A stretch of DNA of 64,000 bases from an uncultured Erysipelotrichaceae bacterium. GTDB taxonomy: Bacteria > Bacillota_I > Bacilli_A > RF39 > UBA660. This document shows, piece by piece, positions 2,256 through 36,210 of the stretch. The stretch lies in NCBI GenBank assembly GCA_902764545.1, contig CACWWC010000002.1, forward strand, positions 1-64,000, read 5' to 3'. Numbering within the stretch: the stretch's first letter is position 1; every line of letters begins with the position of its first letter. Position numbers and translations under genes: made by a program. The notes below the pieces were generated by a model. It was not told the origin of the DNA and searched no databases. It was given only the letters and a program-made list of their open reading frames with translations.

Positions 2256-4244
2256 TTACTTTACAAAAACTTTTTTTGAAAAGTTACTAAATACATTAGA
2301 TAATTCCCTCTCTATTTTTTTAACTCCTCCATCATCAATAATTTTATTAATAATAATTGCATTAAAAATCATATTAACTTTTTCACAATCAGATACTGAA
2401 GAAATATCTAAAGTTGTTAAATATCTTAAAACCTTAAGTCTAGAAATAACATAACCACCAATATTATATGTTAATCCACTATCTAAGAAATGTTGATCAA
2501 GTTTTTTAATAACATCTAATTCTAATAACTGATCATCAATTTTATTATTTAAGCTATCATTTATAGTAGATAAATAAGAAGAATTAATAATAGACTTATC
2601 ATAAGTTGGATAATACTCTTCTAAACTTTCACTACCAATAGAGAATAATTTTCTAAATTTATCTAGTTTTTTTATACTACCAATAATTTCACCATTACTA
2701 TCTCTATAATCAAAACCAATATCATCAGAAAACATAATAGCAAGAATCATATCATAAGTATCTTCATTTATTAATGAAAAATCATCAACCATATCTTTAT
2801 ATAAGCCATTTTCAAGAATCATATCTATATAATCAAAATATTTATTATTATTAAATATTTCAAAATTATCCATCTTCTTCAAATCATCATAACTCAAATA
2901 TCTACTTAATAAACTTGAAGTTGACATCAAAGATGCATTATCCATCATTAAAATAGAGCCATTCGTATCACTTAAACTAAGTGTATTAACACCCATTGAA
3001 CGAAGCATAGAAATATTTCTAATAAGATTATTACCATCTAATAATATAGCAGGATGATTTGTTAATAAATTAGCATGAATTATATTATTATTAATAAGTT
3101 CAATAACATTATCAATTGTATCATAATCACTTAAAGATATAATATTAACGATAATCTTATTATTAAATAATGATTTCATTATAGGTCTTTTTTGACAATA
3201 CTTAAAAAACTTTTCTAATTTATTATAACTAAGTGAATAAAAACTATCTTTAACCGCATCATCAAAACAAGATACATTAAAGTTATATTTTACACATAAT
3301 GATTCAATATCCGACTTATTAAACTTAGAAAGTTTATTATATATTTTATCGTTATGTTCTAAAGCCCATTTATAAACTAACTCTAATAACTCTAAATCAT
3401 CAGGAAAATCACTAACTATACTAGCATTAACTACTTCATCATCTTTTATGGTTAATAACTTATTTTTTAAAGTATCATACTTATTCGCAATAGCCAAATT
3501 CTCTTGCATCCTTTTAGAATCAGTATGTTTAATCTTAGATAGTTTTTTTTCAACTAACTCTTTTAACTCAATAAGTTCTTGAGGATACACCCCACTATTA
3601 ATTAGATTAAATCTAGTAAAAGAAATAAACTTTCTAGCTAATTCCGGATTATTCGCAAGTCTTTTTGTAAGCTGATAAAACATATACATATTTTCATGAT
3701 TTCCATCAAAAAATTTCTTATTATAGATAGCCAATAGATTAACATAATCAATTCTCTTCAACTTCTTTTCTTCTTGCTTTCTCAATTTTCTTAGATTACT
3801 ACCCTTACCAAATGCTACAAAGACACAATTTGAACTACTTTGAAATTGGTCTAAATACTTAGTAGAATTCTTATAATATGGTGAATTTGGATTATATATT
3901 TCAAGTACTCCTTCTAATTTATCATCACGAATATCTCTAAATAAATCCAAAAAAGTATAAAGATAATCTTCTCTATCTCTTTCCTTTACTTTAAGCAGGT
4001 TACGATGTAGTTCAAGTGTTGATTCAGTCATACTTAAAACATCTGTAAAATCAATATTTGGACAGAAAATAATAAACGAAGCTTTCATTAAATCAACAAC
4101 TTCAGATTGACTAAATTTTTCATAACCACCCTTAGCTTCAATAACTCTATAAATACTTTGTAACAATTCGGCCTCTGGAGATACATCTAACTCTTTTGAA
4201 TAATTACTTATTCTATCATCTATAAGATTAATTAATTCTGTCAT
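2256..4244 (-). CDS. Hypothetical protein, 662 residues, Asn/Asp/Leu-rich, mostly helical
   Basis: Not recognised. The protein is large, rich in Asn, Asp, Ser, Leu and Ile, and has no membrane segment or signal peptide. Residues 1-110 look helical; residues 130-160 include a Lys/Arg-rich stretch around GKGSNLRKLRKQEEKK. The central and C-terminal parts read as successive short amphipathic helices, perhaps a helical-repeat scaffold (inference). The ATG at 4242-4244 overlaps the TAA of the upstream gene by one base (TAATG), a sign of translational coupling. A GGGGTGG ribosome site lies just upstream. Confidence 0.6.
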   Translation of the reverse strand: MTELINLIDDRISNYSKELDVSPEAELLQSIYRVIEAKGGYEKFSQSEVVDLMKASFIIFCPNIDFTDVLSMTESTLELHRNLLKVKERDREDYLYTFLDLFRDIRDDKLEGVLEIYNPNSPYYKNSTKYLDQFQSSSNCVFVAFGKGSNLRKLRKQEEKKLKRIDYVNLLAIYNKKFFDGNHENMYMFYQLTKRLANNPELARKFISFTRFNLINSGVYPQELIELKELVEKKLSKIKHTDSKRMQENLAIANKYDTLKNKLLTIKDDEVVNASIVSDFPDDLELLELVYKWALEHNDKIYNKLSKFNKSDIESLCVKYNFNVSCFDDAVKDSFYSLSYNKLEKFFKYCQKRPIMKSLFNNKIIVNIISLSDYDTIDNVIELINNNIIHANLLTNHPAILLDGNNLIRNISMLRSMGVNTLSLSDTNGSILMMDNASLMSTSSLLSRYLSYDDLKKMDNFEIFNNNKYFDYIDMILENGLYKDMVDDFSLINEDTYDMILAIMFSDDIGFDYRDSNGEIIGSIKKLDKFRKLFSIGSESLEEYYPTYDKSIINSSYLSTINDSLNNKIDDQLLELDVIKKLDQHFLDSGLTYNIGGYVISRLKVLRYLTTLDISSVSDCEKVNMIFNAIIINKIIDDGGVKKIERELSNVFSNFSKKVFVK

Positions 4245-32142: not shown

Positions 32143-34002
32143 TTAAGATTTTAATTCATTTATAATATCATTAAAAATCGATTCAGTATCTAACCCATAT
32201 TCACTTTCGAGTTCAGAAATAGAGCCATGTTCAATAAATTTATCGGGATACGCATAATAAAACCCTTTTAAACCCTCACAATTATTATCAACCACTAATT
32301 CCTTTATAGTAGTACATAATCCTCCAACTATGGTTCCATCCTCAATAACCACAAACTTTTTTGTTTTATTAATACTATTAAGAACTTTCTTTTTATCAAA
32401 TGGCTTTAAAAATCTGCAATTGACTATTTCAGATGAGATATTATGCTCTTGCAGCATTTTATTTAAATTAATACCCTTATAAACAGAATTACCTATAGTA
32501 ATTAAAGTAATATCAGACCCACGAACTATTATATCAGACCCTCCAAATAAAATTTTTTTGCAAGGATAGTTAATTTCGTGTTCTTCCCCTCTAGGATATC
32601 TTATAACCACAGGTTTAGAAAGAGTCACTGAAAAGTCCATCATCATTTTTAATTCCTTATAATCTCTTGGGGCCATAATAACAATATTTGGAATAAGTCT
32701 AAAAAAAGATAAATCAAACAAACCATGATGTGTGGGTCCATCATTACCAACAACACCAGCTCTATCAACACACATAATTACTGGGAGGTTTTGTAGACAA
32801 ATATCATGAATAATTTGATCAAATCCACGTTGATAAAAGGATGAATATAGTGAAATGAAAGGAATCATTCCCTCAACAGCTAAACCAGCTGCAAAAGTCA
32901 ATGCATGCTGCTCTGCTATACCAACATCAAAGAAACGCTCAGGGAATTTTTTAGCAAATTCAGTAAGCCCTGTTCCGTCCTTCATCGCTGCAGTTATTGC
33001 AACAATCTTTTTATTCCTCGAAGCAAGAGAAATAAGCTTTTTACCAAAAACAGCAGAATAATCCTTTTTCTTTTTACTCAATAATTCACCACTACTAACA
33101 TTAAACTTGGAAATACCATGAAACTTTTCTGGTGTCTCCTCAGCATATTTATACCCCTTACCTTTCTTTGTAATTACATGAATTAAGGTTGGTCCTGATA
33201 AATCCTTAGCTTTCAGAAACAAATCTTCCATATCAGAAATAGAGTGGCCATCAACTGGACCCAAATATCTAAATCCTATCTCTTCAAAATACATTCCGGG
33301 AAGTATCAGCTGCTTTATTCCCCTTTTTGCCTTAGCAACACCATTTACAATAAAAGACCCAATTAGAGGAACTCTTTTGACAACGTTTTTTACAATTTGA
33401 TTAGATTTAGTATAATTTTTTTTAACTCTTAATCCTGTTAAAAGCTTATTCATTCCACCTATATTTTGTGAAATACTCATTTCATTATCGTTTAAAATAA
33501 CTATAATATCCGTATTTGAATTTCCAACATGATTTAATGCTTCAAGAGCCATGCCGCCAGTAAGAGCGCCATCACCAATAACAGCAATTACTTTTTCATT
33601 ATCACCCTTTAAATCTCTCCCACACGATATACCCATAGCTGCAGAAATTGAAGTACTACTATGTCCAGTATTGAAAACATCTGTATATGACTCTGCAGTT
33701 TTAGGGAATCCGGAAATACCCTTAAAAGTTCTTAATGTCCTTAATTTATCCTTTCTGCCAGTAAGAATTTTATGTACATAACATTGATGTCCAACATCCC
33801 AAATGATTTTATCCTTAGTTACGTCAAAAATACTTTCTAAAGCTATTGTTAGTTCTACAATTCCTAAATTAGATGCCAAATGCCCACCATTTTGAGAAAC
33901 AATCTTTAATAAATAGCACCTAATCTCATCAGCTAATTGTATTTTTTCAGGTAATGTCAAACTTTTAACATCATTAATTTTATTTATTTTTTCTATTTGC
34001 AT
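32143..34002 (-). CDS. dxs: 1-deoxy-D-xylulose-5-phosphate synthase
   Basis: Joins pyruvate and glyceraldehyde 3-phosphate to DXP with thiamine diphosphate, the first step of the non-mevalonate isoprenoid route. 619 residues. Visible are IWDVGHQCYVHKILTGR, the ThDP motif GDGALTGGMALEALNH, the NDNEMSISQNIGGMN region, the pyrimidine domain with DVGIAEQHALTFAAGLA and DRAGVVGNDGPTHHG, and a transketolase C domain. ATG 34002 with GAGTGAT upstream. Single gene between proS and the divergent nuclease. Confidence 0.97.
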   Translation of the reverse strand: MQIEKINKINDVKSLTLPEKIQLADEIRCYLLKIVSQNGGHLASNLGIVELTIALESIFDVTKDKIIWDVGHQCYVHKILTGRKDKLRTLRTFKGISGFPKTAESYTDVFNTGHSSTSISAAMGISCGRDLKGDNEKVIAVIGDGALTGGMALEALNHVGNSNTDIIVILNDNEMSISQNIGGMNKLLTGLRVKKNYTKSNQIVKNVVKRVPLIGSFIVNGVAKAKRGIKQLILPGMYFEEIGFRYLGPVDGHSISDMEDLFLKAKDLSGPTLIHVITKKGKGYKYAEETPEKFHGISKFNVSSGELLSKKKKDYSAVFGKKLISLASRNKKIVAITAAMKDGTGLTEFAKKFPERFFDVGIAEQHALTFAAGLAVEGMIPFISLYSSFYQRGFDQIIHDICLQNLPVIMCVDRAGVVGNDGPTHHGLFDLSFFRLIPNIVIMAPRDYKELKMMMDFSVTLSKPVVIRYPRGEEHEINYPCKKILFGGSDIIVRGSDITLITIGNSVYKGINLNKMLQEHNISSEIVNCRFLKPFDKKKVLNSINKTKKFVVIEDGTIVGGLCTTIKELVVDNNCEGLKGFYYAYPDKFIEHGSISELESEYGLDTESIFNDIINELKS

Positions 34003-34094
34003 AATATCACTCTTTTTTTACAGTAAATATATTATATATTTTTTTTACGAAAAATTAAAGAAAAAAAGAATAATAATATTGGAGGTGATTCAAA

Positions 34095-34844
34095 ATGACA
34101 ACAAAAGATATGACATTGTTGTTAATAAGATACTTAAAAGTTAAAAATAAAGGATGGATAAAAAGCCTAAGACGTGGACCAACAGGCATTGGCTATACAT
34201 TTGAAACATTAATAGGAAAACAAGAAGAAAACCTTCCTATTGCTGATTTTAGAGGTATAGAAATAAAAGTTAAGCGTAGATATAGCAAAGGAAATATAAC
34301 TTTATTTACTGCAAATCCAGATAATGAAATATTCGCTATAAAAAGAATATATAATGAATATGGAACATGCAATTATAATAAAAACTTTCATAAGACTTTT
34401 ATAACAAGTATAAACTCATTTGAAAAGAAAAGAAAGGGAAACTATAACTTCATTATAAAAGTAGATGAGAAAAAACAAAAAATAAAATTAGAAATTTATG
34501 ATCTAAATAAAAATTTAGTTGAAGATGATATATCATGGTCATACGAATTAATTAAAGAAAAAATATACTTTAAAATAAAAAATTTAGCAATCGTAAAAGC
34601 CCATGTAAAAAAAATAGGTAATGAAGAACTTTTCCATTACAACCACATTGACTTTTATGAAATAAAATCATTCGAAACATTTGTACGTTTAATAAAAGAA
34701 GGATTAATAAGTATTACATTTAATATTAATGTATATATGGATAAAAAAAGATATGGAAACATCTACAATCACGGAACAGCATTTATAATAAACATTAATA
34801 ATATAGAAAAGCTATATCAAAAAAAAGACTTTCAAAAAAAATAA
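34095..34844 (+). CDS. MvaI/BcnI-family restriction endonuclease-like protein, orphan
   Basis: 249 residues. Residues 25-60 read GPTGIGYTFETLIGKQEENL, then IADFRGIEIKVKRR: the MvaI/BcnI order G-x-x-x-E-x-x-xG followed by D-x(4)-E-x-K, a PD-(D/E)XK active site. After it comes NITLFTANPDNE, also family-like. MvaI and BcnI cut CCWGG- or CCSGG-type sites as monomers, and their fold resembles MutH. No methyltransferase gene lies in the window, so it may not be a standard restriction enzyme. ATG 34095 with GGAGGTGATT upstream. Transcribed alone, with its own terminator. Confidence 0.8.
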   Translation: MTTKDMTLLLIRYLKVKNKGWIKSLRRGPTGIGYTFETLIGKQEENLPIADFRGIEIKVKRRYSKGNITLFTANPDNEIFAIKRIYNEYGTCNYNKNFHKTFITSINSFEKKRKGNYNFIIKVDEKKQKIKLEIYDLNKNLVEDDISWSYELIKEKIYFKIKNLAIVKAHVKKIGNEELFHYNHIDFYEIKSFETFVRLIKEGLISITFNINVYMDKKRYGNIYNHGTAFIININNIEKLYQKKDFQKK

Positions 34845-34870
34845 CTGATTCACGCCTTCAGTTATTTATT
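34837..34870 (+). terminator. Terminator of the MvaI/BcnI-like gene
   Basis: AAATAACTGA / TCAGTTATTT stem with a nine-base loop and a T-rich tail. Confidence 0.8.
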
Positions 34871-35149
34871 ATAATTTATATGTTTTATTATCACAAAAAG
34901 TGTAATGCGTAATATATGACTAATCTTTCTTAAATATTTTTTTTAAAGTGAACAAAACAATAAATTATTTTATCAATGTATAATCAAAAAACATACGTGA
35001 AAACAATAATACACTGACATTATAATTATAGCACTAATTGATTAAAAATAAATATAATTTTATGCATTTTTTTTAAATAGTGTAAAATAACGTCAAAGTA
35101 CACTAGGTTTGGACAAAAAAAAAACATCAAAAAGATGCTGAAAACAAAA
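34871..35149. other. Intergenic, no gene seen
   Basis: Very A+T-rich spacer between the nuclease gene and the tRNA block. No open frame with a ribosome site, no RNA signature. An AAAAAGATGC-type short repeat near 35130 may be a weak tRNA operon terminator: GCATCTTTTTGATG on the minus strand followed by seven or more T. Confidence 0.4.
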
Positions 35150-35226
35150 TGGTCGGGAAGACAGGATTTGAACCTGCAACCCCTAGGTCCCAAACCTAGT
35201 GCTCTACCAAATTGAGCCACTTCCCG
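35150..35226 (-). tRNA. tRNA-Pro (TGG)
   Basis: 77 bases, seven-pair acceptor CGGGAAG/CTTCCCG, anticodon loop TTTGGGA with TGG, T-arm GGTTCAAATCC, encoded CCA. Last gene of the tRNA operon. Confidence 0.96.
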
Positions 35227-35231
35227 AATCA

Positions 35232-35308
35232 TGGTGCGCTCGAAGGGATTCGAACCCCTGACCTTTTGGTTCGTAGCCAAACACTCTATCCAACTGAGCT
35301 ACGAGCGC
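35232..35308 (-). tRNA. tRNA-Arg (ACG)
   Basis: 77 bases, acceptor GCGCTCG/CGAGCGC, anticodon loop CTACGAA with ACG (A34 probably changed to inosine), T-loop GGTTCGAATCC, encoded CCA. Confidence 0.96.
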
Positions 35309-35345
35309 AAGACATGGAGTTTAGCTACTCAAATTCAAAATAAAA

Positions 35346-35421
35346 TGGTGGCTCCAGCGGGAATCGAACCAGCGACACAGGGATTTTCAGTCCCTTGCTC
35401 TACCGACTGAGCTATGAAGCC
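35346..35421 (-). tRNA. tRNA-Phe (GAA)
   Basis: 76 bases, acceptor GGCTTCA/TGGAGCC with one G-U, anticodon loop CTGAAAA with GAA, discriminator A, encoded CCA. It is the probable ligand of the T-box at 1510-1718. Confidence 0.96.
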
Positions 35422-35427
35422 AAATAA

Positions 35428-35504
35428 TGGCGGTTCCTACGGGACTCGAACCCGCGATCTTTTGCGTGACAGGCAAACGTGTTAACCAGCTGCACCAAGG
35501 AACC
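35428..35504 (-). tRNA. tRNA-Asp (GTC)
   Basis: 77 bases, acceptor GGTTCCT/AGGAACC, anticodon loop CTGTCAC with GTC, discriminator G, encoded CCA. Confidence 0.96.
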
Positions 35505-35513
35505 TTAAATAAT

Positions 35514-35590
35514 TGGTTGCGGGAAGAGGATTCGAACCTCTGACCTTCGGGTTATGAGCCCAACGAGCTACCAAACTGCTCCATCCCGCG
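35514..35590 (-). tRNA. Initiator tRNA-fMet (CAT)
   Basis: 77 bases. Unpaired C1-A72 at the acceptor end, anticodon loop CTCATAA with CAT and GGG/CCC pairs in the anticodon stem are the initiator marks. CCA encoded. Confidence 0.96.
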
Positions 35591-35597
35591 ATATAAA

Positions 35598-35690
35598 TGG
35601 CGGAGGAAAAGGGATTCGAACCCCTGCGCCGCTTGCACGACCTTCCGGTTTTCAAGACCGGTCCCTTCAACCAGACTTGGGTATTCCTCC
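35598..35690 (-). tRNA. tRNA-Ser (TGA)
   Basis: 93 bases with the long variable arm of class II tRNAs, anticodon loop CTTGAAA with TGA, discriminator G, encoded CCA. Confidence 0.96.
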
Positions 35691-35694
35691 ACGT

Positions 35695-35783
35695 TGGTGC
35701 CTAAGGCCGGACTTGAACCGGCACGAGGGTTGATTCTCGCAGGATTTTAAGTCCTGTGCGTCTACCAATTCCGCCACTCAGGC
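35695..35783 (-). tRNA. tRNA-Leu (TAA)
   Basis: 89 bases with a long variable arm, acceptor GCCTGAG/CTTAGGC, anticodon loop CTTAAAA with TAA, discriminator A, encoded CCA. Confidence 0.96.
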
Positions 35784-35786
35784 ACA

Positions 35787-35862
35787 TGGTGACCTGTATG
35801 AGATTCGAACTCATGACCCTTTGATTAAAAGTCAAATGCTCTACCAACTGAGCTAACAGATC
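35787..35862 (-). tRNA. tRNA-Lys (TTT)
   Basis: 76 bases, acceptor GATCTGT/ACAGGTC with one U-G, anticodon loop CTTTTAA with TTT, encoded CCA. Confidence 0.96.
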
Positions 35863-35875
35863 ATATAAATTAAAA

Positions 35876-35950
35876 TGGCTGCCTCGGTTAGATTCGAACT
35901 AACGCATGTCAGAGTCAAAGTCTGATGCCTTACCACTTGGCTACGAGGCA
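35876..35950 (-). tRNA. tRNA-Gln (TTG)
   Basis: 75 bases, acceptor TGCCTCG/CGAGGCA, anticodon loop CTTTGAC with TTG, discriminator G, encoded CCA. Confidence 0.96.
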
Positions 35951-35960
35951 AACTCAAAAG

Positions 35961-36045
35961 TGGTGGAGAGAGATGGATTCGAACCATCGAACTCAAAGAG
36001 AACAGATTTACAGTCTGTCGCGTTTAGCCACTTCGCTACCTCTCC
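35961..36045 (-). tRNA. tRNA-Tyr (GTA)
   Basis: 85 bases with a long variable arm as bacterial tRNA-Tyr, anticodon loop CTGTAAA with GTA, encoded CCA. Confidence 0.96.
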
Positions 36046-36052
36046 AAAAAAA

Positions 36053-36128
<76 letters not shown>

Positions 36129-36133
36129 ATAAA

Positions 36134-36210
36134 TGGTGGGCGATATAGGACTCGAACCTATGACCCCCTGCTTGTAAGGCAGGTGCTCTAACCAACTGAG
36201 CTAATCGCCC
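36134..36210 (-). tRNA. tRNA-Val (TAC)
   Basis: 77 bases, acceptor GGGCGAT/ATCGCCC, anticodon loop CTTACAA with TAC, encoded CCA. First gene of the tRNA operon. Confidence 0.96.

Follow-up and report, generated by a model that had tools for sequence, protein, structure and literature searches.

A methylase-free branch of MvaI/BcnI-type nucleases located at particular tRNA genes in the family of an uncultured Erysipelotrichaceae bacterium

We analyzed a stretch of 64,000 nucleotides from an uncultured Erysipelotrichaceae bacterium (assembly GCA_902764545.1, contig CACWWC010000002.1, positions 1 to 64,000; hereafter the window), in which a solitary gene for an MvaI/BcnI-type nuclease lies at 34095..34844 on the + strand. 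The nuclease belongs to a branch of this family whose members are intact, under purifying selection and free of a methylase, sit at particular tRNA genes and mostly stand beside an inverted piece of the tRNA. Our preferred explanation, to which we give a probability of about one in three (0.35), is that the enzyme would be a rare cutter targeting tRNA-gene sequence and having its job at that very locus, either in a homing-like manner or by guarding the tRNA attachment site.

The gene is real. Its reading frame starts with an ATG, immediately preceded by the ribosome-binding-site-like GGAGGTGAT (34081..34089, + strand, read from the sequence), and encodes 249 amino acids. The Pfam profile PF15515 (MvaI_BcnI) matches the protein at 1.1e-41 and 143.7 bits (cut-off 25) over profile positions 6-227 of 227, and comparison with the sequences of the PDB gave R.MvaI at 1.4e-34 and R.BcnI at 1.5e-6. 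An AlphaFold2 model was built from six sequences (mean pLDDT 70, residues 12-53 being low); its predicted fold resembles that of R.MvaI (Z 19.8 over 201 residues, 3.2 A, 26% identity) and of R.BcnI (Z 16.1 over 187 residues), the next unrelated row reaching only 4.6. The family assignment made in a preliminary description of this DNA from the D-x(4)-E-x-K site, here D51-x4-E56-x-K58, is confirmed by profile, motif and modelled fold.

R.MvaI (CC^WGG; PDB 2oa9 and 2oaa), a Type II restriction enzyme that has a partner methylase, shares with the window nuclease the family, the catalytic motif and the length of 249 residues. The two differ in that HDHG near the C-terminus of R.MvaI reads YNHG in the window nuclease, and in that no methylase was found for the latter while the window holds 32 CCWGG sites. 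R.BcnI (CC^SGG; PDB 2odi), which also has a partner methylase, shares the motif and the modelled fold, whereas its sequence match is weak.

Relatives of the gene are scattered through the host's family. A first survey found it in 14 of 99 genomes, the host's own included, and in a sample of the phylum 12 of 392 genomes matched PF15515, 10 of them above the cut-off. With a family profile (A1), relatives were then detected in 109 of the 386 genomes sampled from the host's family, representing 65 of 150 genera; the locus, whose conservation the preliminary description had left to be checked, recurs within the family, many of the copies being at tRNA-Pro(UGG). We worked with 116 loci, namely a discovery set of 16 (the window and 15 earlier loci, L016-L030) and a replication set of 100 near-full-length loci, three of which had been seen before (L143 = L016, L203 = L074 and L229 = L076). 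Twelve rows with short or broken fragments were dropped before counting, and 7 of those places were fetched. Non-carriers are genomes without a match in a single-protein search, which is less sensitive than the family profile.

The catalytic triad D-x4-E-x-K is intact in 114 of the 116 aligned homologues, the window's included, and dN/dS lies between 0.08 and 0.20 in 13 of 13 sister pairs, with high synonymous differences (0.46-0.67). The idea that these genes are non-functional relics of a lost restriction system is contradicted by the dN/dS values and disfavored by the intact triads. Some copies are indeed broken, as the 7 fetched loci with fragments or remnants illustrate, and yet a relic is the explanation to which we give the least credit of all.

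We then consider the methylase that a restriction enzyme would require. The neighbours of the nuclease gene are dxs and a tRNA array of 12 genes, with no adjacent methylase gene, and its description as an orphan between dxs and the tRNA operon therefore stands. The whole host genome (1.57 Mb, 93.5% complete) gave no match to PF00145 or PF02384, a single 20-bit match to PF01555, under the cut-off, in a gene that we read as a RumA/RlmD-type RNA methylase, and a single partial match to PF02086, over the cut-off, in a gene that we read as an RsmD-like RNA methylase. As several MvaI-type methylases score poorly with PF01555 (24-51 bits), we built a further profile (A2) from an alignment of seven N4-type methylases adjoining plasmid relatives of MvaI. 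It found no match in the host and in 11 of the 13 other carriers of the first survey, a partial match in G055 (2e-4) and a strong match in G042, on a different contig, which we read as a different system. The genome-wide search recommended in the preliminary description, run with these four Pfam profiles and the N4-type profile, thus disclosed no methylase of cognate type in the host.

A linked cognate methylase, by which a Type II restriction-modification system is recognised, was found neither in the window neighbourhood nor in the host's own genome. A normal restriction-modification system could still have an unlinked methylase, one of a type not yet known, or one encoded in the part that the assembly lacks, and besides the 93.5% completeness this is favored by the occurrence of at least one PF00145 methylase in 7 of the 14 carriers of the first survey. 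On the other hand, 5 of these 14 (G000, G013, G015, G020 and G049; completeness 69-98%) lack any PF00145 match, any PF01555 match above the cut-off and any match to the N4-type profile, and the only strong profile match is the one in G042. We consequently hold such a system to be improbable.

The preliminary description had also raised the possibility of a MutH-like nuclease directing repair to one strand. BcnI, which is monomeric, cuts the strands of DNA one at a time (PMC4081073), and this speaks for such a role. However, wide conservation would be expected of a repair enzyme and no relative was found in 277 of the 386 family genomes, the tie to one tRNA would be unexplained, and the profile searches of the host genome described above yielded no DNA methylase able to set the mark. 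A repair function is hence very improbable, only a little less so than a relic.

Over the 116 loci the N4-type profile found no methylase. A C5-type profile, built from ten methylases adjoining other MvaI relatives, found one in a single locus, L242 (genome G739), which is also the only row of the family placed by the tree outside of the group, on a long branch. It looks for these reasons like an ordinary restriction pair and, as a more distant relative with a methylase in its locus, is a point in favor of normal restriction-modification. Relatives outside the family served as controls. Fifteen plasmid matches were obtained and 13 were opened, H6 and H7, Lactococcus records similar to H5, being left out; a methylase lies close to the nuclease in 11 of the 13, those of H4 and H11 being annotated as hypothetical and recognised by Pfam (weakly for H4), and none was seen near H2 and H10 in plasmid gene tables that are incomplete. 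In the phylum sample, L070 and L071, from two other families, have a neighbouring methylase by motif or profile. Copies of phage origin are one match among annotated phages and 13 viral-contig loci; several loci of the viral contigs hold a methylase by motif. A plasmid of Photobacterium damselae (L037) carries an MvaI/BcnI gene without an annotated methylase nearby, which adjoins ssb and is near rdgC.

Observed/expected ratios of CCWGG are 0.69 for carrier loci (about 1.03 Mb) and 0.67 for non-carriers (0.34 Mb), which rules out a special avoidance in carriers, and the 32 sites of the window amount to 0.90 of the expected number. For CCSGG the ratios are 0.64 in carriers and 0.76 in non-carriers, the latter having given just 15 sites. 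Since CCWGG is not specially avoided and no methylase was found, an active CCWGG cutter is hard to picture in these cells. GATC is scarce as well (77 sites in the window for 154.8 expected; ratios of 0.54 in carrier loci and 0.58 in non-carriers), and the similarity of the two ratios indicates that this shortage is not tied to the nuclease.

In the first loci examined, the nuclease gene and tRNA-Pro(UGG) point at each other with their 3' ends, tail-to-tail, and the gene on the opposite side varies (dxs, a Peptidase_S11 gene, lemA, a metK-like gene and others). A convergent tRNA-Pro(UGG) lies within 600 bp in 14 of the 16 discovery loci and in 66 of the 100 replication loci, or 64 of 97 once the three loci seen earlier are removed. 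A second clade, with 17 rows including one from a viral contig (support 100/99) and 16 loci, is associated with a pair of other tRNA genes: 8 of its 16 loci follow a tRNA-Met(CAU)-Leu(UAG) pair of the same orientation at a distance of no more than 600 bp, and 2 more within 1.3 kb, no such tRNA being read in the available stretch of the remaining 6. The tRNA-Met(CAU) of this Met clade resembles, as we take it, the tRNA-Ile2 type. A few loci adjoin tRNA-Arg or tRNA-Ala.

In many loci a degenerate inverted copy of the tRNA, running from the anticodon loop or arm to the start of the T-stem, lies between the nuclease gene and the tRNA terminator. Its significance was assessed by dinucleotide shuffles (p<0.01), loci with a gap below 30 nt being excluded, so that 77 of 80 were tested. 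The inverted tRNA-Pro piece was significant in 11 of 14 discovery loci and in 38 of 63 replication loci (37 of 61 after removal of the loci seen earlier). In the Met clade an inverted tRNA-Met piece was found with p 0.015 or less in 14 of 16 loci, those lacking a tRNA-Met of their own having been tested against the pool of the clade's tRNA-Mets. A uniform test on the 150-nt flanks of tRNA ends gave 54 positives among 85 tRNA-Pro(UGG) ends near a nuclease, none among 21 other tRNA ends near a nuclease, each against its own tRNA, and one among 40 ends in non-carriers, some of whose genomes were looked at twice. The last, in G018, was also the single positive of 19 in an earlier test of non-carriers, and looks like the end of an insertion sequence. 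Fifteen further non-carrier genomes showed no piece at p<0.01. The piece as a general product of convergent genes is not supported, with 1 positive among 19 convergent control ends.

The piece follows the tRNA of its own locus. Over all 77 loci the sum of scores against the own tRNA is 1738, compared to a mean of 1444 (sd 26) with swapped tRNAs, and none of 5000 swaps reached it; where the tRNA core is unusual (51 loci), the own tRNA fits better than the common one in 25, equally well in 19 and worse in 7. This test was repeated on all 77 because a first set of 52 loci had been chosen for matching their own tRNA, and had given 1419 against 1203, with 34 unusual-core loci of which 19 were better, 13 equal and 2 worse. 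Relatedness was left in these comparisons, so part of the effect could be shared descent. When 15 sister pairs were compared by eye, several were found to differ just at the centre of the piece with agreement of the flanking blocks, and in several the piece agrees while its surroundings drift. Among the 7 decayed loci, 4 held a suitable tRNA, and the piece persists in L281, L283 and L284 and not in L285. Along the piece, identity is mostly 0.8-1.0. It drops to about 0.66 at the 3' edge of the anticodon loop (tRNA positions 39 and 40), to 0.74 at position 31, and to 0.40 at position 56, a position reached by 5 loci only.

Similar pieces are seen away from the nuclease: L205, in two places, and L223 hold inverted tRNA-Ala, tRNA-Phe and tRNA-Ser pieces at tRNA ends distant from the gene, the tRNA-Phe piece facing, by reading, an mscL-like gene. 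Inverted tRNA pieces may have a wider role or origin.

tRNA ends are also integration sites in these genomes, which brings up the hypothesis that the nuclease is an ordinary orphan restriction gene, left as cargo at a hot spot after elements integrated at tRNA 3' ends had decayed, and without any tie to the tRNA. L017, L154 and L156 carry, 3' of the nuclease, copies of 17-18 nt of the tRNA-Pro 3' end, and tRNA-Pro is duplicated in the non-carriers G006 and G014; judging from these sequences, integrative elements use the same tRNA-Pro as the nuclease group. However, the copy in L154 lies between the nuclease and the tRNA. In the viral contig L058 (around 3820-3985), a 20-nt attachment core made of the 3' end of tRNA-Leu(UAG) has an integrase-like gene on one side and a terminator, an inverted tRNA-Met piece and a Met-clade nuclease on the other. 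The core splits the integrase from the nuclease, and in both places the nuclease is therefore outside the element. L058 and L059 both adjoin a prophage attachment core, and their nuclease would be best read as the host side. That the nuclease is part of an integrase element was accordingly rejected where attachment sites are readable (L154 and L058). The inverted piece is no copy of an attachment site either: such copies repeat the 3' end of the tRNA and occur separately. As the cargo hypothesis also leaves unexplained the inverted pieces matching the own tRNA, the repeated choice of tRNA-Pro and the selection on the protein, we consider it doubtful.

A more serious competitor is a phage-defence nuclease kept by the host, silent in healthy cells and equipped with a tRNA-derived control element. 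The piece would then act in RNA, pairing with the anticodon arm or the 3' half of the tRNA in read-through transcripts, and would either sense tRNA damage or control the nuclease. Purifying selection and the patchy presence in 109 of 386 genomes fit with this, as do the tracking of the own tRNA and the sister pairs in which the piece outlasts the drift of its surroundings. Furthermore, in the predicted fold of the window's read-through RNA the inverted piece pairs with the anticodon arm over 14 bp. On the other side, for 100 neighbour proteins no methylase or restriction family is among the matches listed (25 of 31 PADLOC families and 25 of 77 Pfam families), and few of the listed PADLOC matches bear a defence name (mad8 5, HerA 2, mad3 2, AriA 2, SspH 1 and others), which may be housekeeping look-alikes. 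In addition, the strand of the piece differs between the clades, being that of the nuclease in the Pro clade and the other one in the Met clade, so that a single RNA mechanism would have to cope with both geometries. This explanation is a tentative one, nearly as likely as the rare cutter that we prefer. The defence by action on modified DNA for which the preliminary description had allowed finds no support in our results.

We propose, for the rare cutter targeting tRNA-gene sequence, the following scheme; the site, the cutting and the role of the nuclease are what we infer from the arrangements described above. The enzyme would no longer cut a short site such as CCWGG, which is present in a host where no methylase was found. 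It would instead cut or nick a longer, rare site made of tRNA-gene sequence, from the anticodon arm to the start of the T-stem, perhaps one strand at a time as R.BcnI does. Such a protein could be a free-standing homing-like or locus-guarding endonuclease, its substrates being tRNA alleles or attachment sites without the resident arrangement. The inverted piece could be an altered copy of the enzyme's site, or else the footprint of cutting followed by fold-back repair, and would be kept in step with the resident tRNA. The dip of identity at positions 39-40 is as a site altered at its centre would look. A strict rule by which the piece destroys a GGWCC or CCWWGG site fails by eye in some loci. 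Of the features of a free-standing homing endonuclease, a scattered occurrence beside a conserved gene, together with decayed copies, is seen here (109 of 386 genomes, location at tRNA-Pro, 7 decayed loci fetched).

Several observations weigh against this proposal. Among the replication loci, 34 of 100 have no convergent tRNA-Pro within 600 bp, 7 loci running off the contig within that distance, and in the uniform test 31 of the 85 tRNA-Pro ends near a nuclease are without a significant piece and 4 of 44 tRNA ends elsewhere in the same loci are positive, one of these four (L225) being itself a Met-clade locus. Carriers such as G013 and G020 have a resident tRNA-Pro identical to that of non-carriers, and the tRNA gene alone cannot therefore be the discriminating site. 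The piece of the window is located 257 nt from the nuclease stop, beyond another conserved block, which contradicts a plain insertion junction or scar. In 61 of the 116 loci less than 4 kb of sequence flanks the nuclease on one or both sides, and in 50 less than 1.5 kb, so that a methylase in the vicinity could have escaped notice in these loci. Finally, in genera with at least two carriers, 47 of 71 nucleases outside the Met clade find their best match within the genus and 24 elsewhere, a more vertical pattern than would be expected of a freely homing gene. The corresponding figures for the Met clade are 4 of 6 in the same genus and 2 of 6 in another.

In the tree, the window groups with G030 and G036 (100/98) and not with the other carriers of its own genus, which are likewise at tRNA-Pro; the weak forks are not to be relied on because the bootstrap had not settled. 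The picture that these sequences suggest is one of mostly vertical descent, with replacement or transfer at the same place.

A bolder version would make the nuclease tRNA-programmed: the enzyme, or a nucleic-acid partner, would find its target by means of the bipartite copy of anticodon arm and T-stem start, the centre being free, and each genome would keep a copy matched to its own tRNA-Pro or tRNA-Met/Ile2. We regard it as rather unlikely, less so than normal restriction-modification.

Coming back to the window, dxs occupies 32143-34002 and the 12-gene tRNA array 35150-36210, both on the - strand. The tRNA-Pro(UGG) that anchors the nuclease (35150..35226, - strand) is the last gene of this array, and is followed by the terminator of the operon, a small hairpin with a T-run read from the sequence and folded (35115..35149, - strand), which separates it from the inverted partial copy CACTAGGTTTGG (35101..35112, tRNA-sense on the + strand, that of the nuclease). 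CACTAGGTTTGG matches the anticodon arm of the tRNA-Pro in the window exactly, over 12 nt (p 0.005, 200 shuffles). No direct repeats of the tRNA end were found around the nuclease. The conserved intergenic block between nuclease and inverted copy (34850..35060, - strand, delimited by eye) is common, again by eye, to G000, G030 and G036, displays promoter-like and terminator-like stretches, and has a similar counterpart after tRNA-Pro in the non-carriers G011 and G026. A search of Rfam with the region between nuclease and tRNA gave nothing above a family's gathering score, and the fold of 34850-35045 is not better than that of shuffles (z-score 0.90); it is possible that this block is an unknown small RNA. 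Elsewhere in the group, L028 and L029, from two genera, have 5' of the nuclease a HerA-like helicase gene (DUF87 by Pfam, HerA by PADLOC), directly adjoining it in L029 and two frames off in L028, followed by sepF and divIVA.

Two known situations can be compared with this one. SegB, a nuclease of the GIY-YIG type, is a homing endonuclease. In a report on the T-even phages, it is a free-standing phage enzyme encoded beside tRNA genes and suggested to cut within tRNA-containing sequence (PMC13096335), which makes it a precedent for our proposal. It is therefore alike in being a stand-alone nuclease adjoining tRNA genes, and differs in being a phage gene, whereas the window gene is bacterial, of MvaI/BcnI fold, and its cutting of tRNA sequence is putative. 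The second is the class of solitary restriction endonucleases for which Ershova et al. 2012 found no partner, naming among the reasons the absence of sites, inactivity and a changed function; their survey counts 116 solitary genes, all types together, without predicted partner or truncation (PMC3488263). By the definition given there, no methylase within 4 kb, the window gene is solitary, as read within the 64 kb, and like those genes it is of restriction type with no methylase nearby. It differs in belonging to a large, active-looking and tRNA-anchored group, and the survey's main text mentions neither tRNA nor MvaI. A literature search by title and start of abstract retrieved no description of a tRNA-anchored nuclease of MvaI type.

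An intact restriction-type nuclease without a methylase in its cell is an open puzzle, and with about 100 nucleases sharing one clue, a tRNA gene with an inverted piece, this puzzle becomes testable. If the target is indeed tRNA sequence, these would be restriction enzymes turned into rare cutters of essential loci, and the group would be a source of new site-specific nickases. If the pair of nuclease and tRNA-derived element proves to be tRNA-programmed, it would represent a new locus-specific immunity or selfish system.
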